IMG/VR virus record: IMGVR_UViG_3300048591_000731
Location: 1 to 48,716 of that record
Source: a virus
Length of the DNA: 48,716 nt
Reading direction: 5' to 3' (one strand)
The notes below the pieces were generated by a model, which was not told the origin of the DNA, did not search any database, and worked only from the letters and a program-made list of their open reading frames with translations. Each line of letters begins with the position of its first letter. Position 1 is the first letter of the stretch. The position numbers were made by a program, and so were the translations under genes. Positions 5,962-46,105 of this stretch are shown here, one piece after another.

Positions 5962-6244
5962 CGTGGACCGCAACGCCCCCGTCACCATACCGGCCTGGCT
6001 CTTCGAGAAGCTCCTGGCCCCCCAGCGTTCCGTCCCACTCCGTGATCCCGGCTTCGACCCCCCACCCGATCTTCAATACAACATCCACGGTCAGTACGGA
6101 GGAACCCCATCAGCGAAGACCCCAAACCCCGAATCGGGTGGGGGGGTTCCGAATCCGTTCCGGGCGTGGGAGCCGGTCGGCCGCAATCAGAAGCTCACGG
6201 AGGCCGCAGAACCTGATACCATGGACGACACTGGGGGTAACTGA
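5921..6244 (+). CDS. Hypothetical protein between terminase and portal
   Basis: 107 residues, Pro-rich, no recognised domain. The ATG at 5921 lies 41 bases inside the end of the terminase gene and has AAAAGGA eight bases upstream. An in-frame GTG at 5963, just after the terminase stop, is an alternative. Its stop overlaps the portal ATG by one base. One copy of the G-rich motif (6136) encodes Gly-Gly-Gly-Val. It could be a small head-assembly protein; this rests on position only. Confidence 0.6.
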   Translation: MVPPNSPIHGLPSDVDRNAPVTIPAWLFEKLLAPQRSVPLRDPGFDPPPDLQYNIHGQYGGTPSAKTPNPESGGGVPNPFRAWEPVGRNQKLTEAAEPDTMDDTGGN

Positions 6245-14433: not shown

Positions 14434-14798
14434 CTGTCGTTGATCTGTTGGTGTGCGGTCTGATGACTGTGGGCCTGGCCCAGGTGTTCGTGCGGGCCGA
14501 GGGTGGGCCCGGTGAATGGATCCGGACCCACATCGTCGACCCGATTCTCACTCGCATCAAACTCAAGAAGATTTCTGACTGTACATTCTGTGCCAGTGTG
14601 TGGTTCGGGTTCTTCGTGGCGGCCCTCTTCTTCACGTATCCCGAAGCTGTCTACGTGGGCGCCGCCACTTTCGCAGGTCCGTTCCTCCTGTGGCTGACGG
14701 GAGAGGTGCCCCGCCGCAAGGGCATGGGCTGCAACAAGACTGTGAACGCTCCGACCCCCCCACCCGAGACACCCAATGCGACGACTCCAGGATCTTGA
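14430..14798 (+). CDS. DUF1360-like small membrane protein
   Basis: 122 residues. Hydrophobic segments near residues 3-22 and 50-95 flank a CTFCASVWFGFFVAALFF segment. The Cys-x2-Cys followed by Trp is the hallmark I associate with DUF1360 membrane proteins, which are found in phages and Gram-positive bacteria with unknown function. The C-terminus is polar and Pro/Thr-rich, with a reverse-orientation G-rich motif (14755). ATG overlaps the previous stop. A lysis or superinfection role is possible but unproven. Confidence 0.6.
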   Translation: MTVVDLLVCGLMTVGLAQVFVRAEGGPGEWIRTHIVDPILTRIKLKKISDCTFCASVWFGFFVAALFFTYPEAVYVGAATFAGPFLLWLTGEVPRRKGMGCNKTVNAPTPPPETPNATTPGS

Positions 14799-15561
14799 GG
14801 GACTGTACGAGGGGGCCGAGTGCTTCCTGGTGCTGAACGGACCGAGCGCCGCCGAAGCCTATCCATTGCTGGAGAAACGGGGCGTCGTCACGATGGCCGT
14901 CAACAATGGGTGGACCCAGTTCCGGCCCACGCTGTGGTGCTGCCACGACCCCGGCTCTCGCTTCTCGATGCACGGGTGGCGTGACCCGGCCATCCTCAAG
15001 TTCGTGCCCAAGACCCGACTCAGGGACGCGGTCCTCGACGATGCCGGCACACCCTGCGGTTGTGTCGGATGGCTGCCGTCCGTCGTCCCCTTCGACGTCC
15101 GCTACAACTTTGATGCCTCCAAGTTCCTGGACGACGGCGTGATGGCCGGCACCGCCGGACGTACCACCTGCCCCGATGGCCACCGCAACACAGTATCCGT
15201 GATGCTGTGTGCTCTGAAGGTCCTGGTCACACTGGGCTTCAAGACCATCTACTTGGTGGGCGCCGACATGGGAGCCCATCCCGACGGCCGTCGATACGCC
15301 TTCGCCGAGAGAGTGTCCGCGAATCACCAGGACCGGTTCCATGAGATCCTTCGATTCTGGCTCACCAAACTGGCACCCATCCTCTCGGGTGGGGGGGTCC
15401 GCATCGTCAACACGACCATGACCAGTAATCTGGAATGCTTCGAGTTTTGCCCCTTGCAATTGGCTCTCGAATCGGTACGATGGATGGAGTCCAAGCCCAA
15501 GACCGAAGGCCGCTACGCGATGGGCTTCACCCCTATCAAACGAACCCCCCGCTTCCAGTGA
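14776..15561 (+). CDS. DUF115 / MptE-like Rossmann-fold protein
   Basis: 261 residues. Near the start, CFLVLNGPSAAEA and VNNGW with a later HDPG follow the pattern of DUF115/MptE-like proteins, and IYLVGADMG comes later. Members accompany glycosyltransferases in motility-gene and phage clusters and are thought to act in sugar or sugar-nucleotide transfer; some archaeal relatives are pyrophosphokinases. The next gene is a glycosyltransferase fusion, so a shared glycan pathway is likely. It overlaps the upstream gene by 23 bases. A G-rich motif copy (15387) encodes Gly-Gly-Gly-Val. Confidence 0.6.
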   Translation: MRRLQDLEGLYEGAECFLVLNGPSAAEAYPLLEKRGVVTMAVNNGWTQFRPTLWCCHDPGSRFSMHGWRDPAILKFVPKTRLRDAVLDDAGTPCGCVGWLPSVVPFDVRYNFDASKFLDDGVMAGTAGRTTCPDGHRNTVSVMLCALKVLVTLGFKTIYLVGADMGAHPDGRRYAFAERVSANHQDRFHEILRFWLTKLAPILSGGGVRIVNTTMTSNLECFEFCPLQLALESVRWMESKPKTEGRYAMGFTPIKRTPRFQ

Positions 15562-15567
15562 GGACCC

Positions 15568-16761
15568 ATGAAGTATCTGACGTTCGCAACCCCCATGTAC
15601 ATGTCGCACCTCCGCGTCATGACCGACTCCTTCCAAGTCTTCGGTCTCCAGGACAGCCTGGAAACCGTCCTCTATGAGAACGAAACGTCGTGGGAGGTCG
15701 GCAACTACCGGAAGGTCCGGCTGATCGCGGACCGTCTTCGCAAGGGGGAAGCCCCCTTCGTCTGGATGGACTGCGACACCATGCTGATGAAGTTGCCGGA
15801 CTTCGAGTCACTCCCTGAGTGGACTCAGATCGCGTGCCGCATCTACCCGATCGGCTGCACACCGGGCACCGAGTACGCGTGTGGCGTCATGTACTTCGGG
15901 GAGAACTCGCTGCCAATCGTCGAAGAGTGGGAGCGTCGGTGCCAGATCGCCGAGGAGCAGAAGAGAGTCCTCCGATTCGCGGACCAGTCCATCTTCTGTG
16001 AGATGATCCCGGAGAAGGGTTGGCAGGATCGGGTCCTGTGCCTGCCCCGCGAGTACAACATGAGAGTCCATGAGGTCGTGAAGAACGCACCGGTTCTCGC
16101 GGACCCCGTCATCTACCACGCGAACCAGCGGACCAACACGGACCGCGAGTACGCCACGGCCATGCCCCGATACAAGGACCACACTAAGACGTGGCCCCTC
16201 GGCATCGAGATGTTGCCCCCCACCCGGTCCAGTCTGGAGCGGATGGACAAGCCGCACACCGGACCCCTCATCGAGAGCCTGCTCCCGATCGTGAGACCGG
16301 ACGGCCTGGGCATCGAGGTCGGCAGCGCATACGGCGAGAACGCTTTCCACCTGATCCACCGTCTGCCCCTCAAGCGGCTGTTCTGTGTGGATCCCTGGTC
16401 TGTCAAGGGTAATGGCCAATACCGGAATCAGTGTTTCGATGGTCTCCTTCGAGACCAGATCCTGTCCAAGGCCGTCGTGAAGGACCGCCGCACCAGCCCC
16501 GAGGCCGCGTCCCGCTACAAGGACGGCATGTTCGAGTTCGTCTACATCGACGCCAACCACTCCTACGACGCCGTCTCCAAGGATGTCCGTGCGTGGTGGC
16601 CCAAGATTCGGGTGGGGGGGGTTCTCTGTGGCCATGACTGGGCCGACCTCTGGGGCGATGGCGTCTCCGTCGAGAAGGCTGTCATGGACTGGGCCACACC
16701 CCTGGGCCTCTCTGTCACGTTGGACTCAGGCAACAACTGGTACGTCTGGAGGAAGTCTTGA
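15568..16761 (+). CDS. Glycosyltransferase-methyltransferase fusion
   Basis: 397 residues in two domains. Residues 1 to about 220 look like a GT-A glycosyltransferase: FVWMDCDTML carries the DxD metal site, and FADQSIFCE is a later acceptor-side motif. Residues about 235-397 form a class I methyltransferase of the Methyltransf_24 type: IEVGSAYGENAF binds S-adenosylmethionine, FEFVYIDANHSYDAV follows, and GGVLCGHDW ends the core. The two could add and methylate a sugar on a virion protein or other acceptor. A GAGGACCC ribosome-binding site precedes the ATG. An 8-G repeat copy (16610) encodes Val-Gly-Gly-Val within the methyltransferase. Confidence 0.75.
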   Translation: MKYLTFATPMYMSHLRVMTDSFQVFGLQDSLETVLYENETSWEVGNYRKVRLIADRLRKGEAPFVWMDCDTMLMKLPDFESLPEWTQIACRIYPIGCTPGTEYACGVMYFGENSLPIVEEWERRCQIAEEQKRVLRFADQSIFCEMIPEKGWQDRVLCLPREYNMRVHEVVKNAPVLADPVIYHANQRTNTDREYATAMPRYKDHTKTWPLGIEMLPPTRSSLERMDKPHTGPLIESLLPIVRPDGLGIEVGSAYGENAFHLIHRLPLKRLFCVDPWSVKGNGQYRNQCFDGLLRDQILSKAVVKDRRTSPEAASRYKDGMFEFVYIDANHSYDAVSKDVRAWWPKIRVGGVLCGHDWADLWGDGVSVEKAVMDWATPLGLSVTLDSGNNWYVWRKS

Positions 16762-19655
16762 GCATCGCGAATCAGATCCGATCCGAAGTCGTCGACCGCC
16801 GCACCTACCGACGCCCCACACCCCAGGGCACCGAGTCTCGCGACCAGATGATCTACCGGTCTCACCACATCCATCAGAGCCGACTGCACTCTGGGATGCA
16901 GCCAAACACCTACATCACTGAAGAACTGGGTGAGCTGTTTGCTCTGGCGAAGGCCAACAAAGTGTCCACGAGCGGGCGGGTCCGTTGGTTGGGCGGCACG
17001 GACTACGCGCTCAAGCGGTCGAGCTGCCTGTTCAATTGCAGCTTCCTGAATGTCAACTCGGTGTTCGATGTGGTTGACGCGTTCTGGCTCCTCCTCAATG
17101 GGTGTGGCGTCGGGTTCACGCCCCAGCCCGGGACCCTGCGAGGATTCAGCCGACCCAAGTACCTGGCCCACACGACCCGAGACAACAGCTCCTCGTTCCG
17201 GGGACGTGAAACAAATCTGTCACATGTCGAGAATGGTCGATGGAATCTGTCGGCCGGTGATTCGGCTGTAGCGTGGGCCAAATTCGTGGGGAAGCTGTTC
17301 TCGGATGAACGACGCGACGGGCCCGAGCAGATGCTGCATCTGGACTTCTCGGAGATCCGGGGCGCCGGCGAACGACTGGCCGGCTACGGCTGGATCTGCG
17401 CCGGGAGCAAGGGATTGGAGAACGCGTCCCTGAAGCTGGCCGAGATCCTGAACCATCGGGCCGGTTGGCTGCTGTCGGCCTCAGACATTGTGGACGTCAT
17501 GAATCTGATGGGTACCGTGCTGTCGACGCGGCGGTCCGCTGAGATTGCGCTGCTGTCGGCCCACCACCCCGAGGCCTCGATCTTCCAGAAGCTCAAGGGC
17601 CCCAACCTCACTGAGCATCCTCATCGAACCCAATCCAACAACAGCCTGGTCTTCTCGACGAAGCCGTCCCGATCCCAGCTGACAGAACTTCTGGTGTCCA
17701 ATTTGGAGGGCTACGACATCGGGTTCGTGAATGGAGAGGCGGCTCTCAAGCGAGCACCATGGTTCCAGGGCTGCAATCCGTGCGCGGAAATCCTGCTTCC
17801 GAACCACGGGTTCTGTGTTAGGGGGGATACCCCACTGATCACTCGAAAGGGAGTTCGGCAGATCAAGGACTGTGTGGACTCTCCCGTTGAGGTCTGGAAT
17901 GGGACTGAGTGGTCGCAGGTTCAGCCACAAATGACCCGGTCCGAATCGGATCTTGTCCGGGTCACACTCAGTGATGGATCTTATCTGGACTGCACCCCCG
18001 ACCATCGGTTTTCTGCAAAGACTCGATTCCAGAAGGAATGGAGACCAGTGGAAGCCAAGGATCTCTTGGGGTCGTCATACAGGTTGCAACTGGAACCAAC
18101 GACCATTGAGTGGTGTGACGGGGAATATTTGGAGTCAGCATATACACTGGGGTTCGCGGTTGGCGATGGTTGTGTTCAGAAGTCCACGGTTTTTGTAGAT
18201 CTCTATGGTGAGAAGGATCAGTGTTGTCCTGTGGAAGGTGTTCGGTACAAGCCTTACCAGCCGAAAGGTTATTCCGTAAACAGGGTGAGAGTCAAAACTG
18301 GCCTCTCAGCTACGGCGGTTCGCTTCCTGAAGACAGACTCAGCGGCCTTGGATTCGTGCTTCTACTGGGATAAACCTTCCATACTCCAGTTTATGGCGGG
18401 TTGGTTGGACGCCGACGGAACTGTCACCTCGTCCGGCTCGATCCGCCTCTACCTGTCCGACGAACAGCGGGTTCGACGGGTTCAGCTCCTTCTCACTCTG
18501 GTCGGTGTCAGATCCTCCTGCTGTCTGCTCCATCGAGCCGGAACTGTCACCAATAAGGGAACCCGAAAGAGGGATCTCTGGTACCTTCAGATCCACGATG
18601 GCAGGACAATTCCTTGTCATCGGCTGGATGTTTCCCGAGGTCATCCGCCTCGAATGAAAGGGAAGTACCAGACTGTCCGTAGTGTGACCCCTCTATCTGG
18701 CCGGGAACCAGTGTACTGTTTCACGGAGCCCCATTATCACAAGGCATTGTTCGGGAATGTGTATACACATCAGTGCAATCTGTCGGAGATCAATCTGCCG
18801 GCATTCAATGGGAATCTGGCGGCACTGGAGGACGCGGCCCATCGACTGGGTCGGGCCAACTACCGGCAGACTTGTGTGGATCTGCGGGACGGAGTGCTGC
18901 AGCCAACGTGGCATCAGACCAATGAGACGCTGCGACTGTGTGGCGTAGGCATCACTGGCATTACGATGTGTCCGTGGCTCACGCCGTACATTCTGCGGCG
19001 GATCAGGCAGGCAGCATGGGCAGGCGCCTGCAGCGTGGCCAACGAGTACGGGACCCCCCGTCCTGCTGCGGTCACCACCGTGAAGCCGTCGGGCACCCTC
19101 TCGAAGGTGTTTGGTGTGTCGAGCGGCTGCCATCAGCCCGTGTCCCGCTACGAGCTGAACACGATCCTGTTTGATAGACACGACCCACTGGTTGCGTCGC
19201 TGAGGGGGGCCGGGTTCCAGATGTTCGAGCACCCGACCCAAGAGAACGGGATGCTCATCGAGTTCCCGATCGACAACGGGTCCGAGGTCGTGGAGAACGA
19301 GCCGGCGATCGTGCAGCTGGAACGGTACCGGATGCTCATGGACAACTGGTGTGACTACAACGTCAGCATCACGGTGTCCTACGACCATCATGAGATCCCG
19401 GCCATCGTGGACTGGCTCGATCGTAACTGGGACTCCTTCGTGGCTGTCTCGTGGATGCAGCGGATCGATCCTTGGACGGACCCCGCCTCCATCAATCAGC
19501 GGTACCTGCCCCAACGGGCCCTGACTCCCGCCGAGTTCTCGGCCAAGGCCAAGGACATCCGGCCGATCAACTGGAATCAAATCACTGAAACCGATGTACA
19601 GTACGACATTGAGGATGCCGCCGAATGCGCCGGCGGTGCCTGCCCTGTGAGGTAA
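16758..19655 (+). CDS. Adenosylcobalamin-dependent ribonucleotide reductase with intein
   Basis: 965-residue precursor; 645 residues after splicing. It makes deoxynucleotides from ribonucleotides using B12. Cys90 and Cys94 lie in KRSSCLFNCSF. NPCAEI holds the likely thiyl cysteine (342), and CNLSEI the redox partner, split from it by the intein. TTVKPSGTLSKVFG is the phosphate-binding signature of class II enzymes. Length and motifs match the monomeric triphosphate-reductase type seen in other phages. The start is TTG 16758 with GGAGG five bases upstream, overlapping the previous stop. A MazG-like gene follows four bases later. Confidence 0.88.
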   Translation: MSIANQIRSEVVDRRTYRRPTPQGTESRDQMIYRSHHIHQSRLHSGMQPNTYITEELGELFALAKANKVSTSGRVRWLGGTDYALKRSSCLFNCSFLNVNSVFDVVDAFWLLLNGCGVGFTPQPGTLRGFSRPKYLAHTTRDNSSSFRGRETNLSHVENGRWNLSAGDSAVAWAKFVGKLFSDERRDGPEQMLHLDFSEIRGAGERLAGYGWICAGSKGLENASLKLAEILNHRAGWLLSASDIVDVMNLMGTVLSTRRSAEIALLSAHHPEASIFQKLKGPNLTEHPHRTQSNNSLVFSTKPSRSQLTELLVSNLEGYDIGFVNGEAALKRAPWFQGCNPCAEILLPNHGFCVRGDTPLITRKGVRQIKDCVDSPVEVWNGTEWSQVQPQMTRSESDLVRVTLSDGSYLDCTPDHRFSAKTRFQKEWRPVEAKDLLGSSYRLQLEPTTIEWCDGEYLESAYTLGFAVGDGCVQKSTVFVDLYGEKDQCCPVEGVRYKPYQPKGYSVNRVRVKTGLSATAVRFLKTDSAALDSCFYWDKPSILQFMAGWLDADGTVTSSGSIRLYLSDEQRVRRVQLLLTLVGVRSSCCLLHRAGTVTNKGTRKRDLWYLQIHDGRTIPCHRLDVSRGHPPRMKGKYQTVRSVTPLSGREPVYCFTEPHYHKALFGNVYTHQCNLSEINLPAFNGNLAALEDAAHRLGRANYRQTCVDLRDGVLQPTWHQTNETLRLCGVGITGITMCPWLTPYILRRIRQAAWAGACSVANEYGTPRPAAVTTVKPSGTLSKVFGVSSGCHQPVSRYELNTILFDRHDPLVASLRGAGFQMFEHPTQENGMLIEFPIDNGSEVVENEPAIVQLERYRMLMDNWCDYNVSITVSYDHHEIPAIVDWLDRNWDSFVAVSWMQRIDPWTDPASINQRYLPQRALTPAEFSAKAKDIRPINWNQITETDVQYDIEDAAECAGGACPVR
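17814..18773 (+). mobile_element. Intein with LAGLIDADG homing endonuclease inside the reductase
   Basis: 320 residues (353-672 of the precursor). It begins CVRGDTPLITRKG, the N-terminal splicing block. A later block has TPDHRF. Two endonuclease motifs are seen: LGFAVGDGC and MAGWLDADG. The C-terminal block ends FGNVYTHQ and is followed by extein Cys. The last intein residue is therefore Gln, not the usual Asn. The insertion point is directly before the reductase CNLSEI cysteine, so the +1 splicing nucleophile is also the catalytic residue. The intact reading frame and motifs suggest activity. Codon use is less GC-rich than in the flanking extein. Confidence 0.9.
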
Positions 19656-34445: not shown

Positions 34446-35654
34446 TCAGGTGTTCAGGACGACGTCAACTGAGGGTTCGGGCTCACGATCATCACGATAG
34501 GAGACCGCGAAGTTCTCGGCGACGATACGGGGCCATGCAGCGTAGTTGTCGTGGGCCTCATACAGGGGCAGCAGAGCATCGATGGATGCGCCCGGGTAGT
34601 CGGGCAAGAGGTTGCTGCCACATGGAGGGAAGCACGAAGGGGTGCCCTCGCGGATGCAGGCCTTGTCCAGCTCCTTCAACTGCAGGAAGAAGCCCTCGTC
34701 CTTCATGAGCCGGGGATTGAACGGGATGTTCGACATCTGAACGGGCCGGTTGTTGTTGGACCGCTCAACTGTCAGGTGGTGGAACTCACCCTCGCCCAGG
34801 AGCCACTCTCGGTCACGGGCAAGCAGTTCGTTGGAGGCAGCCGTGGGACCCTCGTTCTTCTCGGTGGTCTTGAGGTATCGGATGGTGGGCTTCTGGAGGA
34901 CCCAGTGGAGCATGCCCTTGAGCTGGGCGGATGCCGGGACACCGTGCTGGTGCAGGGCCCCGGACTGCACGATGTGCTGCATCACAAATGGGTAGAGACG
35001 GGACTGGAAGTCGAGGGGTGCGACCAGCATGCGGACGTGGGGGCTGTGGCTGGTGGTCTTGGCGTCGAAGATGTAGAGGTCGTTGGTGTCGGTGTCGAGC
35101 AGCAGGGCATCGACCTTGATCACGATGGGCGACTTGATCTTCGGGATACGGAGTCGGAACGGCATCTCGGTGCCGATCACCCGGTACTTCTGGAGGTTGA
35201 GTGGTTGGATGGCCCACGCGGTAACGGCCCAGTTGACGGCACGCCGGTACTTCTCCCGCTGGATATCGAAGTCCAGTTGGGTGGGGGGGTCCATGTTCAG
35301 GATACCGGCCTCAGAGATCCAGCTGTCAACCTGGGCCTTCCACTGTTCCATCAGGAATCGGGACAGGTGTTCACCGGCCAACCCGTTGAGCAGGGCTTCC
35401 GAGCCAATGTGGAAGTAAGTGCCCATCTGGAGGGCTTCGGGTCGACCCGACTTGTCGATCAAGCCGTGGCGTGCCCGATGCAGAAAGGCTCGGGGACACG
35501 ATCGCAGCAGCCCATGGAGGGACGAGCGGATCGGGATTGGTCGATCGACGACGCCGTGCCGCCGGAGGAAACGGACCACCACAATCCCGGTGGAGTTGGG
35601 TGTGAGGGGTTTCTTGGAGCTACGAGACGGCGGGAGGGGTTTCGCCTGTGTCAT
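34446..35654 (-). CDS. PD-(D/E)XK exonuclease, Cas4/RecB-like with Fe-S cysteines
   Basis: 402 residues. GTYFHIGSEALLNG (around 78-91) is the conserved helix of RecB-family nucleases. Glu163, VDALLL (Asp182) and FDAKTTS (Asp197, Lys199) form the active site. Cys53 in RSCPRAF and a late CIREGTPSCFPPC triplet could hold a 4Fe-4S cluster, as in Cas4 and AddB. It probably resects DNA ends to feed the annealing ATPase downstream. It has its own promoter with the start codon only six bases past the -10 box. Confidence 0.8.
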   Translation of the reverse strand: MTQAKPLPPSRSSKKPLTPNSTGIVVVRFLRRHGVVDRPIPIRSSLHGLLRSCPRAFLHRARHGLIDKSGRPEALQMGTYFHIGSEALLNGLAGEHLSRFLMEQWKAQVDSWISEAGILNMDPPTQLDFDIQREKYRRAVNWAVTAWAIQPLNLQKYRVIGTEMPFRLRIPKIKSPIVIKVDALLLDTDTNDLYIFDAKTTSHSPHVRMLVAPLDFQSRLYPFVMQHIVQSGALHQHGVPASAQLKGMLHWVLQKPTIRYLKTTEKNEGPTAASNELLARDREWLLGEGEFHHLTVERSNNNRPVQMSNIPFNPRLMKDEGFFLQLKELDKACIREGTPSCFPPCGSNLLPDYPGASIDALLPLYEAHDNYAAWPRIVAENFAVSYRDDREPEPSVDVVLNT

Positions 35655-35660
35655 GGATGG

Positions 35661-35689
35661 AGAGTACCGATGGGTGGGGGGGTTGTCAA
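35661..35689 (-). promoter_or_regulatory. Promoter with G-rich repeat in its spacer, leaderless start
   Basis: Read leftward: TTGACA (35689-35684), a 17-base spacer made largely of the repeat (CCCCCCCACCC), TACTCT (35666-35661), six bases, then ATG at 35654. The -35 is perfect and the spacing ideal. A protein or structure bound to the repeat would directly affect this promoter. Confidence 0.7.
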
Positions 35690-38454: not shown

Positions 38455-39033
38455 TCAGGGGACAGGGACGAAGGCCTTGATGCCCAGCTCGGCGAGGGCG
38501 ACGGCGAGTTCCTTGCCGGCAGAGACGGCTGCGGTGAGGGCCTTGGCCTGCTCTTGAGTGATGACTTGGGCGGTCAGGAGGTGCTGGATCTGCTGGAGTT
38601 CGTAGGCCTTGATGACTCCGGCCACGTCCCGGCCCAGCTCGTCGATGCCCACCGTGAAGCCGCCGGCGAAGGAGGCGGTGAAGCCACGCAGGGTGCTGTT
38701 GCTGGGGTCGCTGTTGAACAGGCGAACGTAGACGGGAGTGCCGTCTGGGGTGGTGGCTGCGACGCCGGCCTCGTTCACGACGGGCAGCAGGACGGCCATG
38801 TCATGGGTGGGGGTGTCGGTCAGCTTGTTGAAGCCGTCGGCATCGAACTCGGTGCCGCTGAAGATGCGGGACGAGGATCCGAACCAGGCGTTTTTGCCCA
38901 TGGTGAAGGCGCCATTGGTGGTGGGGCCCCGGACCTCGTCGATGTTGGCGGTGGACTGGGGGCCCACACAGGCACAGAGAGTGAAGGCGAGGAACACGAA
39001 AACGGTGAGGACGATCAGCCGGGACTTACGCAT
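38455..39033 (-). CDS. Predicted lipoprotein
   Basis: 192 residues. MRKSRLIVLTVFVFLAFTLC is a clear signal peptide with Cys22 (LCAC) as the likely lipid-modified residue. The mature part is mixed alpha/beta, with a helical C-terminus rich in Ala/Leu. AAGGAG precedes ATG 39033. Phage lipoproteins serve as superinfection-exclusion factors or outer spanins. The length is rather long for a spanin, so exclusion is the better guess. It is adjacent to the holin-like and phosphoesterase genes. Confidence 0.65.
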   Translation of the reverse strand: MRKSRLIVLTVFVFLAFTLCACVGPQSTANIDEVRGPTTNGAFTMGKNAWFGSSSRIFSGTEFDADGFNKLTDTPTHDMAVLLPVVNEAGVAATTPDGTPVYVRLFNSDPSNSTLRGFTASFAGGFTVGIDELGRDVAGVIKAYELQQIQHLLTAQVITQEQAKALTAAVSAGKELAVALAELGIKAFVPVP

Positions 39034-40794: not shown

Positions 40795-41346
40795 TCAGAA
40801 TGAGGTGAGACGGATGCGGATGCCATTGGAGGTGGCGGTCAGGCCGGTCTGGGCCAGGGCCTCTGTGGGCAGGAACATGATCTGACGGGCGCCGGCCAGG
40901 TCGTACGCGTACTCGTCAGAGCGGTAGACACCCAGCGTGTTGTCGTGGGAGGCACGACCCGAGTCGAGTGCGAGGGTGGCCAGGGTCCGGTTGTTGTGCC
41001 GGTCCCAGAGTCGGAACCACGGAAAGCCGGGGCCGTGGCGACCCCACAGGTAGCCCTTGGGATTCACGGTGACGGTCGGAGTTCCGGTGCCAATCATGAA
41101 GGCGTGGACGTGAGCCCACCCGTTGACGTCATCCGGGATGTCCAGGATGGCTACGATCTCTGTGTCGGCCGCGTTCTCGGGGTCGTCGCTGTCGTCCGCC
41201 GTTTGCGTAAGGTCGGACCAGAGTCGGACAGAAGGGTAGGAACGAACGACAGAACGTCCAAGGGCTGCATTGGACTGGGTTCCGAAGTTGTAGTTGGCCT
41301 GGTCTTCGGCCCTGAGGAGTTCCGCGATCGACTTGGCGCTGGGCAT
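40795..41346 (-). CDS. Probable virion or decoration protein
   Basis: 183 residues, beta-rich after an N-terminal helix (SIAELLRAEDQANYNFG). Segments such as IVAILDIPDDVNGWAHVHAF and FPWFRLWDRHNNRTL look like a jelly-roll or Ig-like structural domain. CCGGAGTG precedes ATG 41346. In style it resembles the rightward beta-rich virion protein at 27583. The downstream end of an ERCC4-type reading frame overlaps its first 196 bases. Confidence 0.45.
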   Translation of the reverse strand: MPSAKSIAELLRAEDQANYNFGTQSNAALGRSVVRSYPSVRLWSDLTQTADDSDDPENAADTEIVAILDIPDDVNGWAHVHAFMIGTGTPTVTVNPKGYLWGRHGPGFPWFRLWDRHNNRTLATLALDSGRASHDNTLGVYRSDEYAYDLAGARQIMFLPTEALAQTGLTATSNGIRIRLTSF

Positions 41347-41828
41347 TGTGGCACTCCGGCATGGAGGAGGGCGACGACAAGTCCTCCGACTGCGAGACGT
41401 CTACTCCTAGTATAGTAGGGCACCGACCAGACCGCAATACCCCGGGACGCCGCCTCCGCCAACAGTACGGACAGGGCCCGACCCGGATCGGGACACAGCT
41501 TCGTGGGCCTGTCGAACGGGTGGGGGGGATCCTCAACCAGCAGATAGGCCTTCTGGAACTGGGCTGCGAGCCGGTCCAATTGGGACCTGAACATGTCCTT
41601 CGAGGAGCCACAGGCACAGGCCCAGACTTCCCGGGCCCCGTATTTCCGTTCGATGCCCACCAGATCCGGGTTCTCAGCCAGCCGGTAGTCGGCCGTAGTC
41701 AGCTTGACTTTGGCGGTCTCGATGAGGTGGACCCGACGGGCGCCCAGGACCCCGAGAGACAGAGAAGTTGGAAAAGGAATCGGGTACTTCTCTCGGGTGT
41801 CGATTTCGATCCGGATCGTGGGCGTCAC
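41151..41828 (-). CDS. ERCC4-domain nuclease
   Basis: 225 residues as read. IEIDTREKYPIPFP and LVGIERK give the GDxnERKx3D-like core of ERCC4/XPF nucleases, which cut branched or flap DNA. The start is GTG 41828, overlapping the previous stop (GTGA). The last 64 residues (after about HAGVPQ) are read over the start of the next gene and look like an out-of-frame sequence, so the functional domain probably ends near residue 160. The gene may truly overlap, or a stop may be lost by a small sequence error. A repeat copy (41518) preserves the frame as EDPPHP. Confidence 0.65.
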   Translation of the reverse strand: MTPTIRIEIDTREKYPIPFPTSLSLGVLGARRVHLIETAKVKLTTADYRLAENPDLVGIERKYGAREVWACACGSSKDMFRSQLDRLAAQFQKAYLLVEDPPHPFDRPTKLCPDPGRALSVLLAEAASRGIAVWSVPYYTRSRRLAVGGLVVALLHAGVPQCPAPSRSRNSSGPKTRPTTTSEPSPMQPLDVLSFVPTLLSDSGPTLRKRRTTATTPRTRPTQRS

Positions 41829-42239: not shown

Positions 42240-44723
42240 CTATTGGGATTTGAGTTCGTAAGACATGGGGACTCTGTGACCGTGTACGCCACAGAGCCAG
42301 GACCAGAAATTTGGCCGGTCAAGATCGAACGATTCGTGGAAGCAGTCTGCGAGAATGGATCGGGCCGATTCAACGGACTGTTGTGAAGCATCGACAGTAA
42401 CCGAGTCGTAGGTGTTGGCGATCTGGATAATAGTGGTTCCAGGGTGAGTCCAGTCCGCAAGCTTTGAACGAAGTAGGAACTGGAGGTGCAGCATAGACAT
42501 GGCGGCATAGGCCTGGATCGGAAAGTTGATGATGGTCGACTTGTAGGTCTTGGCCAGAACGGAGGGTGAGCCGTGGAAGGTTCGGCTGATTCCGAAGGGG
42601 TGGAGTTCGAGGCGGTGGTGTTCGAGGACGTACTCCACCATTTGATCTTGCCAGCGACAGAGGACAGGGCGGACAGAACGACGCGCAGCCACGATTTTCT
42701 GGCAGACGTCGAGGGGGATGAGGATGGCCGAGTCTCGCAGGATGGTGAGCTGCAGGGTCTCGGCGCTGGAGTCGAAGAGGTCGGCGAAGTTTCCCTGTTT
42801 GGCGGCATGGCGTTCCGTGTCCTTGAATCCCGGGGTTTTCTTGTCGATGACAGGGCCGTACTTGGCGGCCAGGACCTCCATTGTGAAGACCTGGATGGCA
42901 CGCTCGGTGTGGAGGTCGACGCCGGCCGTGGTGTAGGCTTGGATGAGAGAGGGTTCGCCAGTTACGACAGCGGCAGTGCGTAGTTCGGCCTGGTCCAGAT
43001 CCTTGGAAAGCAGGATGCCGCCTGGGAACCGGCTGCAGTAGCAGTTCTGGATCTCCTCGGGGTCCGTTTGGCGGGCGGGGTTGCGGGCTGTGATGCGGGC
43101 CTGTTCGGTGCCGCCCTCATCGCCGCCTTCCTGCCTACTGGGGAACGGGAACCACGTCGGGAACGCCATCAGGACTTGCTGACATATCGATGATGGGCAG
43201 TCCCTGGAAGGCGCCCGCCCACTTCGCAAGATGCCACGGCGTGAGGATAGCGAGGCGGCCCGGTGTGAGATGGACGGGGTGGGCTGCTCGACCGAGGTAG
43301 GCGGAGGGCTCGGGGTGTCCGGTGAGTCCGAAGGCAGCGGCGGCGGAACCCAGTTGGGTGGGGGGTTCCTCGGGATACAGAGGCTGGAGCGACGCCTCTT
43401 CTTGACGCCGGACTTCCGGGCTACAAGCAGAGGCGACACATACGTCGACCGGATCTTGATCGCGAACGTGTGCCGATCGATCAGCTTGAGGGCCCGTTGG
43501 ATCGGGTGGGTGGGGGGGAGTTCCAGTCGGAACAGTTCCCGGTTCGTGTCGCATAGGCTGATCTCTTTCCGTTTGTCGGTGCGGGTCAGGCGGGGGTCGT
43601 CGAGGATGGAAGGGGCCTCAGGGTCCTGGGATTGGCGGTGTTCGTCGATGGCAGCCAGGACACGGAGCAGGAAGTTGTCCCGGGACTTCTTGGGTTTGGG
43701 CCCGGCGTTCTTCGAGAGTACCAAATCGTACTTGGAGCGGGCTACGGCCTCGCAGCGATTGATGGTAGTGAGGCAGCGGGCATCGAGGGTGTGGAGTGAG
43801 GAGGAGTCGAAGGAGTAGCCGGCCTCGGACATGCTGATGCACAACCACAGAGACTCGTGGTAGAAGCGGAGGCAGGCATCCGAGAGCTTGGAGGTGTCGG
43901 GACCGTAGCGATGACGGATGGCCCGAGCCAGGACACCCAGAATGAGGGCAGTGCAGTGGGTGTCCTCGGCGTTGTAGACGGCAAGCTTTGGGTCACGCCA
44001 GGATTGGAAGCGTTCTCCGGCGTCGAAGTCGAGGGCATGGGCTGGGGTGTACGACGCGAACATGGGCCCCAGATCTTTGAGGCTGGACGAGGGGAGCAGT
44101 TCGCTGTAGAGGTAGGCGACGCCCAGTGTGTCGATGCAGAGGTGGGAGTCGGGGTTGATGAGGGGCCCGAAGCCGATGTAGCGGAGGTATAGGAAGTCGA
44201 AGGCCAGGTTGTGGCCAACGAGGACGGAGGCGTGTTGGAGCCATTTGCGGAAACAGAGACGATCGAGGGGCCGGTGCAGGAAGAAGACGCGGGTCTTGCC
44301 GGGCTTGGCGTTCGTGAAGTCGAGGGTGTGGGCCGGGCTCGACTCAATTGGACCATCGGGCAGGTCGACGCCCTCGATCTCGGTGATGGAGACGGACTGG
44401 ACCAATTCGTTGAGGGGATGACCATCGATCCACCTGGACTTGTGTGGATGGAACTGGGTCTGTGGAGCCAACTGTGAACCCCCCCACCCGAAGTGGGTTG
44501 AGCCGGCCGTCTCGATATCGATGGATAGGAGGCGGCTGGAGGTCCGGGTGGGGGGGCCGACTGGGACGAGGTCGGGGTCGGATGGTTCGGGAACCCGGCC
44601 GTTCAGGTGGTCGAGGAGGAGTTGGAAGGACAGCTCGATCGACTCGGCCGAGTTGGGGTCCCTGCGCACCTGCAGGATTGCGGGGTTGAAGCAGGTCAGG
44701 ATGGTCCAGTCTGGGATCGGCAT
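42240..44723 (-). CDS. polA: DNA polymerase A family, with an internal frame disruption
   Basis: 827 residues as read. The exonuclease domain has LSIDIET (Asp69, Glu71), GHNLAFDF (172-176) and YNAEDT (Asp254). The polymerase domain has TEQARITARNPARQ, motif A SKDLDQAELR (Asp575), DLHTERA, motif B RHAAKQGNF and motif C TYDSV (Asp773). Residues about 450-518 are Ser/Pro/Arg-rich and look out of frame. The alternative frame from about 43375 to the TAG at 43135 reads well (LGSAAAAFGLTGHPEPSAYL). The break coincides with the only coding repeat copy that has six Gs (43356). A second shift near 43170-43200 must restore the frame, unless the polymerase is split, with ATG 43169 starting the second part. 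Confidence 0.85.
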   Translation of the reverse strand: MPIPDWTILTCFNPAILQVRRDPNSAESIELSFQLLLDHLNGRVPEPSDPDLVPVGPPTRTSSRLLSIDIETAGSTHFGWGGSQLAPQTQFHPHKSRWIDGHPLNELVQSVSITEIEGVDLPDGPIESSPAHTLDFTNAKPGKTRVFFLHRPLDRLCFRKWLQHASVLVGHNLAFDFLYLRYIGFGPLINPDSHLCIDTLGVAYLYSELLPSSSLKDLGPMFASYTPAHALDFDAGERFQSWRDPKLAVYNAEDTHCTALILGVLARAIRHRYGPDTSKLSDACLRFYHESLWLCISMSEAGYSFDSSSLHTLDARCLTTINRCEAVARSKYDLVLSKNAGPKPKKSRDNFLLRVLAAIDEHRQSQDPEAPSILDDPRLTRTDKRKEISLCDTNRELFRLELPPTHPIQRALKLIDRHTFAIKIRSTYVSPLLVARKSGVKKRRRSSLCIPRNPPPNWVPPPLPSDSPDTPSPPPTSVEQPTPSISHRAASLSSRRGILRSGRAPSRDCPSSICQQVLMAFPTWFPFPSRQEGGDEGGTEQARITARNPARQTDPEEIQNCYCSRFPGGILLSKDLDQAELRTAAVVTGEPSLIQAYTTAGVDLHTERAIQVFTMEVLAAKYGPVIDKKTPGFKDTERHAAKQGNFADLFDSSAETLQLTILRDSAILIPLDVCQKIVAARRSVRPVLCRWQDQMVEYVLEHHRLELHPFGISRTFHGSPSVLAKTYKSTIINFPIQAYAAMSMLHLQFLLRSKLADWTHPGTTIIQIANTYDSVTVDASQQSVESARSILADCFHESFDLDRPNFWSWLCGVHGHRVPMSYELKSQ

Positions 44724-44726
44724 GGA

Positions 44727-45119
44727 TTATCGGCGGGTCGTGTAGATGTAGTGGGGGCGGCCGACGGCCCGGTTGCCCCGACGCTCCTCGCGGATCTTGC
44801 GGATCTGCCGATCGTAGACGCCCTTGCTGACCTGCTGGCGGAAGGTGCGATAGGTGGGCAGGGCGAGTTTCGGCGTGGTCAGGAGGTGGGAGTGGAGTTC
44901 GGAGACGGTGAACTCCCCGAGGACGGCGCCGATCTCGACGATGGCCTTCGCGACCGGGTCACGGGGGACGGGCCGGAGCTGGGCCTTGGCGGCGGAGGTG
45001 CGGCGAGGCTCGGTTCGGGTGGGGGGGTTGGCTCCTCGCAGAATGTTGAGGGTTTCGATGAGGGTGTCGAGTTCCTTCTTCTTGGTGGCGATGATGCTTT
45101 CGATGGTTTCGGTGAGCAT
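44727..45119 (-). CDS. Probable winged-helix DNA-binding protein
   Basis: 130 residues. The N-terminal 35 form a coiled-coil helix (SIIATKKKELDTLIETL). A basic linker contains the repeat copy at 45017. From about residue 60 onward a winged-helix-like pattern appears (FTVSELHSHLL, then TYRTFRQQVSKG), ending in a basic RKIREERRGNRAVGRPHYIY wing. It lies directly before the polymerase and may regulate the leftward operon. AAAGGA is upstream of ATG 45119. It overlaps the reading frame of the glycosylase-like gene by 241 bases. Confidence 0.5.
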   Translation of the reverse strand: MLTETIESIIATKKKELDTLIETLNILRGANPPTRTEPRRTSAAKAQLRPVPRDPVAKAIVEIGAVLGEFTVSELHSHLLTTPKLALPTYRTFRQQVSKGVYDRQIRKIREERRGNRAVGRPHYIYTTRR

Positions 45120-45637
45120 GAGTCTGATCCTTTCAGGATGCGGAGACCCTCCACACGATGGAGTGGCCTCAGGTTGAGGGGTTGGCTGGATTCCAGGGAG
45201 CGACCGAGCACGAGCTTGGTGGCACCTGATCCCAACAGAATGAGGTATCGGGGTGATGGGGCGTGGGCCGCGTCGATGGCGTCGAGGTCCTGCTGGAGGT
45301 AGGGGAGGCAGGCTTTGAAGTGGGCAACTGTGGGGTCTGGGTCGCTGAGGCCGGTGCGGCATCGCAGAATGTTGCCGTAGTAGACGGAGCCCAGGGTCAG
45401 GAGATTGGCGCCGGGGACGATGGCCTTGCGGAGTAGGGAGCCGGCGGAACCGATCCAGGGCCGGCCGAATCGGTCGTCGTCGTAGGAGGGGGAGGCTCCG
45501 AGAAGAACGAAGGCGGGAACGGAGGGGCCGGGTTCGAGGGAGCGAGGGTCCCACTCCCAGGGGACGCCGACGGACACGTTGCCCTCGACGGAGGACAGGT
45601 CACAGGATCGGCACTGGTAGAGGAGGGGCAGCAGCAT
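44879..45637 (-). CDS. Uracil-DNA glycosylase family 4-like protein, apparently truncated
   Basis: 252 residues as read. CRSC and RCRTG plus a Cys 16 residues later supply four Fe-S cysteines. VLLGASPSYDD followed by RPWIGSAGSLL matches motif A, and YYGNILRCR the central Asn motif. This enzyme removes uracil from DNA. The late HPS-type motif is missing: after about residue 175 the sequence becomes Ser/Pro/Arg-rich as it runs over the next gene out of frame. It may be a minimal enzyme, a degenerate copy or a frame error. It starts four bases after the Fic gene stop. Confidence 0.6.
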   Translation of the reverse strand: MLLPLLYQCRSCDLSSVEGNVSVGVPWEWDPRSLEPGPSVPAFVLLGASPSYDDDRFGRPWIGSAGSLLRKAIVPGANLLTLGSVYYGNILRCRTGLSDPDPTVAHFKACLPYLQQDLDAIDAAHAPSPRYLILLGSGATKLVLGRSLESSQPLNLRPLHRVEGLRILKGSDSCSPKPSKASSPPRRRNSTPSSKPSTFCEEPTPPPEPSLAAPPPPRPSSGPSPVTRSRRPSSRSAPSSGSSPSPNSTPTS

Positions 45638-45640
45638 GGG

Positions 45641-46105
45641 TTAGCCGAGCGTCTCATAGTACCACTGATGGAAGAAGCCGAGACGTTTGTAGGTGCCGGC
45701 GCGGAGATGCTGCCAGAGCCAGAGGGCCCGGCCGGTGCGTCCGTTGCCGTCCATCAGTGGGTGGAGCTTCTCGTAGTCGAGGTGAGTGGAGTAGGGGTCG
45801 GTGAGCGGGGTCTCCATGTCACCGAGGATTTCGGCAAGCTGGACCCGGATGTCGGGGCCCCCGGGTGGGGGGGTGTAGTTGCCGACTCGGACATCCATGT
45901 TGGCCTGGTAGCGGAGATGGGGCCTGGTATTGGTGCGAAGGGCGAAAGCCAGGTGTTCAATATCGAGGTCGGTGATGGAGTCGAGGGAGAGGAAGTGGAC
46001 GTGGGCGTCGGTCTCTCGACGATCAGGAAGGCCCAGGCCCTCGATCCGGTTGGACTCCATCAGGAAAAGGGAAAGGTCTGCCGGGGTGTAGGTTTGCATG
46101 TTCAT
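45641..46105 (-). CDS. Compact Fic-domain protein with inhibitory motif
   Basis: 154 residues. The catalytic loop HPLMDGNGRTGR (residues 115-126) matches HPFx(D/E)GNGRxxR fully except Leu for Phe. The flap VGNYTPPPGG precedes it. The N-terminal SNRIEG (18-23) fits the (S/T)xxxE(G/N) inhibitory helix, so autoinhibition is intramolecular. Fic enzymes transfer AMP or other phosphate groups to hydroxyl side chains of target proteins. At this length it is close to a minimal Fic core. GAAAGGAA precedes the ATG, as for the small gene upstream. Target and role (host takeover or defence) are unknown. Confidence 0.85.
   Translation of the reverse strand: MNMQTYTPADLSLFLMESNRIEGLGLPDRRETDAHVHFLSLDSITDLDIEHLAFALRTNTRPHLRYQANMDVRVGNYTPPPGGPDIRVQLAEILGDMETPLTDPYSTHLDYEKLHPLMDGNGRTGRALWLWQHLRAGTYKRLGFFHQWYYETLG

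Follow-up and report, generated by a model that had tools for sequence, protein, structure and literature searches.

The polymerase locus

The window, by which we mean the whole analysed stretch of 48,716 nucleotides, is an IMG/VR virus record. Its minus strand carries a stop-free open reading frame (ORF) of 827 codons (44723–42240), assigned by PF00476, phrog_17 and the predicted structure to a family A DNA polymerase with a 3′–5′ exonuclease domain. PF00476 matches residues 549–796 (E 3.4e-11, above the cut-off), and phrog_17 spans residues 11–792 (E 4.6e-43). The exonuclease domain occupies residues 65–260 (43944–44531, minus strand) and conserves the segments DIET (69–72), NLAFD (172–176) and YNAED (250–254). 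All three exonuclease motifs (I–III) are present, and D69, E71, D176 and D254 are invariant in a comparison with relatives. Further along, the thumb helix and first hairpin strand span residues 407–451 (43371–43505, minus strand), with frame-0 conservation reaching SSLCIP. The palm and fingers (residues 519–827; 42240–43169, minus strand) are in frame 0 throughout and contain motifs A (DLDQAELR), B and C, in which D575/Q578/E580, R638/K642/NF645-646 and YD772-773 are shared with the relatives.

An AlphaFold model of the window polymerase adopts a Pol I-like fold (pTM 0.81), with most of the core at pLDDT 85–97. Of the solved structures, the Bst Pol I fragment matches it best (E 1.2e-20, TM (target) 0.79). 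The ORF is a family A DNA polymerase with its exonuclease and polymerase motifs intact, and the 827 open codons carry both motif sets, as an earlier note on this DNA had read in the frame from 44723.

The codon signal leaves frame 0 and returns

A codon model trained on the genome prefers frame 0 nearly gene-wide, except for about residues 441–517, where the −1 frame wins; when the entire window is decoded with seven states, the switch to −1 falls at 43396–43181. Over residues 452–517 the −1 frame is ahead of frame 0 by 23.9 nats, and among equal-sized windows from the other genes of this genome an alternative frame leads in 0 of 1,435. When the Pro/Ser-rich frame-0 peptide was simulated with the genome's synonymous codon usage, none of the 3,000 trials reached the observed lead; the −1-frame peptide, simulated likewise, reproduces it readily. 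A score based on synonymous choice only is weaker and noisy: it gives frame 0 a z of −3.56, which for true frames is above the 1st but below the 5th percentile, and the loops of two relatives (L178 and L129) also favour −1 by this measure. At the level of the sequence, the frame switch is genuine.

Composition defines the two edges unequally. The first could fall anywhere from about residue 437 to 460, across which the gain is nearly flat (23–30 nats), and the second falls at residues 514–517. The earlier note had described a composition that turns poor near residue 450 and good again at about 520, in a −1 then +1 sense, and both observations hold: the signal goes to −1 at about residues 441–455, leaving frame 0, and comes back at 514–517. 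The landmarks it had pointed out are also present. The −1 frame stops at a TAG (43135–43137, minus strand) about 14 codons beyond the second junction, codon 519 is an ATG (43167–43169, minus strand) that forms a candidate restart and has no Shine–Dalgarno sequence, and the heptamer C_CCC_CCA lies in the phase ascribed to it.

Frame 0 itself has no stops through this region, an outcome with a chance, if untranslated, of 6% (peptide-conditioned simulation) to 28% (empirical, from minus-strand genes). No comparable break was found at the other 37 copies of the repeat described below, nor across about 7,600 codons of long ORFs, and on these grounds we discarded the view that errors pervade the contig.

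The break lies in a length-variable turn

Relatives of the polymerase came from an alignment-based scan of viral contigs (L030–L034) and a second such scan, which supplied more than fifty others; single-protein scans of viral contigs with the full polymerase, the motif region or the terminase returned none. These relatives read ...PLLYHRRNKPDDMSSIIIP, then a variable turn, then AYPTWYVTPS.... In frame 0, the window polymerase follows the same pattern, with SSLCIP up to residue 451 (43371) and AFPTWFPFPS from residue 520, and the break is therefore confined to residues 452–519. The G-run repeat is compatible with the first junction, and it is this homology, with SSLCIP in frame 0 to 43371, and not composition that puts the junction there. 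The second junction, where codon signal and homology are back in frame 0, lies at 43166–43184 (minus strand). Since the conserved AFPTW, beginning at residue 520 (43166), reads in frame 0, a second and opposite event near 43184–43166 is required if the product is one protein, much as the earlier note had argued for 43170–43200.

The segment between the junctions is the length-variable turn (residues 452–518; 43170–43370, minus strand) of a β-hairpin between thumb and palm, Pro/Ser-rich in frame 0 and of normal codon usage in frame −1. It is predicted to be disordered, and residues 464–514 of the AlphaFold model, between the hairpin strands, have pLDDT below 50. In relatives the turn ranges from 6 to about 98 residues, mostly 6–19, with largely unrelated sequences. 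Loop lengths of 182–197 for L137, L152 and L157 in the loop-length and tree analysis are parsing artefacts, and the window polymerase sits in that tree on a very long branch, its placement there being unsure. In all 54 viral relatives examined, a single unbroken ORF covers exonuclease and polymerase across the matched region, as it does in more distant relatives with complete loci, and the frame transition is shared by 0 of the 54.

The loop peptide has no homologue among the relatives' loops in either frame, its alignments to them being no better than shuffles, and a translated search of phages and viral contigs with the −1 peptide found none. Neither a DNA-level relative (by blastn) nor a conspecific contig among the viral contigs was found. 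A lineage-specific insert, considered with reference to T5-like phage polymerases such as that of RcZahn, was dropped because the turn of closer relatives is variable family-wide.

From the family alignment and the predicted structure, the break is a tolerated one, lying in a length-variable, putatively disordered turn between thumb and palm. Because the whole break falls inside this variable turn, a net-zero pair of indels would leave the enzyme intact and the 827-codon ORF in no need of correction or recoding. As sequenced, the ORF is expected to encode one normal polymerase with an unusual turn. The frame break proposed in the earlier note thus stands in its existence, rough edges, sense and second event; what that reading overlooked is the variable turn, predicted to be disordered, that holds the whole break.

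A dispersed G-run repeat near the probable first junction

The repeat GGGTGGGGG occurs in 38 copies in the window against 2.2 expected. It belongs to a dispersed repeat GGGTG(5–8), with a consensus of about TCGGGTGGGGGGGTT, found in both orientations and mostly within genes. Seven Gs is the commonest run length (22 copies), with eight in 8, six in 5 and five in 3. A copy of the GGGTGGGGGGG repeat (43356–43365, plus strand), which has a six-G run, covers codons 453–456, where the shifted segment has its 5′ edge. It had been taken for the sole coding copy with six Gs, all other coding copies supposedly having seven or eight. Neither statement survives, since two other copies with six Gs, at 16216–16225 (in a methyltransferase ORF) and 6058–6067, are in frame within ORFs, and five-G copies lie within coding segments at 2143–2151 and 38805–38813.

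Seven-G copies in minus-strand genes mostly encode x-Pro-Pro-Thr, as in DPPTQLD at 35279, NPPTHRY at 35672 and NPPTRTE at 45017. At 43356–43365, both flanks keep this x-Pro-Pro-Thr phase, the one upstream with Asn in frame 0 and the one downstream with Thr-Gln-Leu in frame −1, which makes a one-base change in run length at the six-G repeat plausible as the first event. That the first shift is exactly one missing G, as had been proposed, is compatible with six Gs where seven is commonest, but composition is nearly flat over residues 437–460 and does not support the exactness. Contigs sharing a 15-mer of the repeat carry neither this repeat family nor this polymerase.

A compensated frameshift as the favoured explanation

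On balance, we think that a net-zero pair of indels has probably left one functional polymerase with a scrambled Pro/Ser-rich loop, that is, a frameshift scar. Ordinary translation of the 827-codon ORF would then yield a single polymerase. The first indel would have occurred at or beside the G-run repeat, at about 43371–43360, and the second, of opposite sense, near 43184–43166. Between them, about 62 codons of a tolerant, 65-residue loop would have changed frame, with no shift in the exonuclease, thumb, palm or fingers. The −1 frame would represent the ancestral reading of the turn, and contraction of the G run may have been one of the two indels. This explanation supposes a correct contig here, and a real scar rather than an assembly error.

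In the comparison with relatives, composition and homology give the order 0, −1, 0 between flanks that are both conserved in frame 0, as two opposite indels may have left it. As in a scar, the ORF is open end to end. Frameshift scars are documented, and slippage in runs of 3–8 bases, G and C included, has been shown experimentally (PMC3812077). Against a scar, the second junction has no homopolymer to account for an indel, and the shifted span is about 190 nt, whereas documented scars mostly span less than 10 nt (PMC8339072).

Should a scar be the correct explanation, a net-zero frameshift can be borne even by an essential replication enzyme, provided that both indels hit a disordered, length-variable turn, and G-run repeats scattered through the genes of a genome could give rise to such indels. 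The case also advises caution in annotation: a stretch of poor composition in an ORF that is intact need not mean a sequencing error or recoding, and relatives can reveal such an ORF as sound unchanged.

Alternative explanations

It is unlikely, though less so than the other alternatives, that coding DNA of about 3n bases from elsewhere was inserted out of frame into a polymerase with a short turn, with no indel pair at all. The shifted segment starts and stops where the variable turn does, most relatives manage with the short turns noted above, and the neighbouring uracil-DNA glycosylase (UDG) gene is also broken by extra DNA. However, blastn finds no source in the window besides the repeat itself, the translated search with the −1 peptide finds none in phages or viral contigs, and under such an insertion the lack of stops in frame 0 would have to be accidental.

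We regard it as rather unlikely that the contig contains two indel errors and that the gene in fact encodes one protein in the order 0, −1, 0. One junction does fall at a G run, a classic site of error, and unclustered frame transitions are frequently errors (PMC3711429). The second junction has no homopolymer, though, and the absence of breaks at the other 37 G-run copies and over some 7,600 long-ORF codons also speaks against errors, as does an open frame 0 that chance alone would have to supply (0.06–0.28).

Somewhat further down, and a distinctly doubtful proposition, is a gene split into an exonuclease–thumb protein ending at the TAG at 43135 and a palm–fingers protein starting at the ATG at 43169, which one change in run length, real or erroneous, has fused through the six-G run. 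A single event suffices here, the ATG lies few codons from the point at which codon usage favours frame 0 again, and PHROGs holds separate families for exonuclease and polymerase subunits. The single ORF in 54 of 54 relatives and a Shine–Dalgarno energy at 43169 of −0.2 kcal/mol weakly disfavour the two proteins with internal restart that the earlier note had entertained, although the ORF's own start at 44723 has no better a signal; the 35-base overlap is also long for coupling. More speculative still is a G run that works as a reversible switch, in which six Gs give the fused enzyme and seven, the more frequent length, give two overlapping ORFs (exonuclease–thumb, and palm–fingers from ATG 43169). 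We consider this very improbable; if true, a phage population would switch between a fused and a two-part polymerase through run-length slippage.

The weakest candidate, programmed −1 slippage on C_CCC_CCA to make a product with the exonuclease alone, or the full enzyme if a second, +1 shift follows, had been raised earlier on a heptamer of correct phase and has in its favour a −1 frame that looks translated, but we hold it to be highly improbable and find it unsupported: there is no downstream RNA structure (fold z −0.02 and +1.14), no relative among the 54 has the transition, and frame 0 already encodes a full-length enzyme that would otherwise require a second programmed shift.

Comparison with known systems

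Compensating frameshifts were reportedly tolerated in the laboratory plus/minus double mutants of T4 rIIB described by Crick et al. in 1961, the segment between them being dispensable. These pairs are the classic laboratory analogue of the favoured compensated frameshift, which in the window is natural, deduced, and in a polymerase. Closer in kind are the frameshift scars, each made of a wounding and a fixing indel, of Gupta and Alland 2021 (PMC8339072): the indels are disruptive singly and not together, one lies at a low-complexity run, and the product is restored with the residues between them altered. Those scars were recognized from observed ancestors and descendants, whereas ours is derived from codon statistics and family anatomy; it also spans far more than most, and lies in a phage polymerase rather than a bacterial gene.

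Also comparable are phage family A polymerases with a UDG-like gene upstream (L030–L034, L110–L163, L178), which align over the full length, most at 30–38% identity. They share the motifs, the same neighbours (UDG and an ERCC4-like nuclease) and a variable turn at the same place, and they differ in turn length and sequence, in having no frame break, and in a UDG that is separate and intact. Homopolymer phase variation resembles the window in placing a coding G run at a frame transition; in contrast, the sequenced state here keeps the ORF open, and a polymerase is an atypical contingency gene.

Neighbouring genes

The gene order UDG, polymerase, ERCC4-like nuclease is common to the window and its relatives; the nuclease was named by sequence inspection and has no Pfam match. 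Relatives have a single intact UDG ORF upstream of the polymerase. In the window, the UDG gene (44547–45637, minus strand) is in two pieces, of which the C-terminal one is joined to the polymerase N terminus. The ORF at 45637–44879 matches positions 23–162 of the relatives' UDG model (E 1e-31), and polymerase residues 6–59 (44547–44708, minus strand) match positions 185–236 (E 1.2e-8). An ORF of 130 aa (45119–44727) sits between the two UDG parts. The nuclease ORF (41151–41828) and the UDG ORF (44879–45637), both on the minus strand, each overrun their homologous or coding signal by about 200 bases, entering the following gene in a different frame. A Fic/DOC family protein (45641–46105, minus strand; PF02661, E 1.5e-6) is encoded immediately upstream of the UDG gene.

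Elsewhere in the window, the ribonucleotide reductase ORF (16758–19655, plus strand) has a LAGLIDADG domain at residues 543–589 and deviant composition at 17749–18708, and it probably contains an intein with a homing endonuclease. The ORF at 14776–15561 (plus strand) weakly matches the alpha-2,3-sialyltransferase phage family phrog_4603 (E 4e-5).
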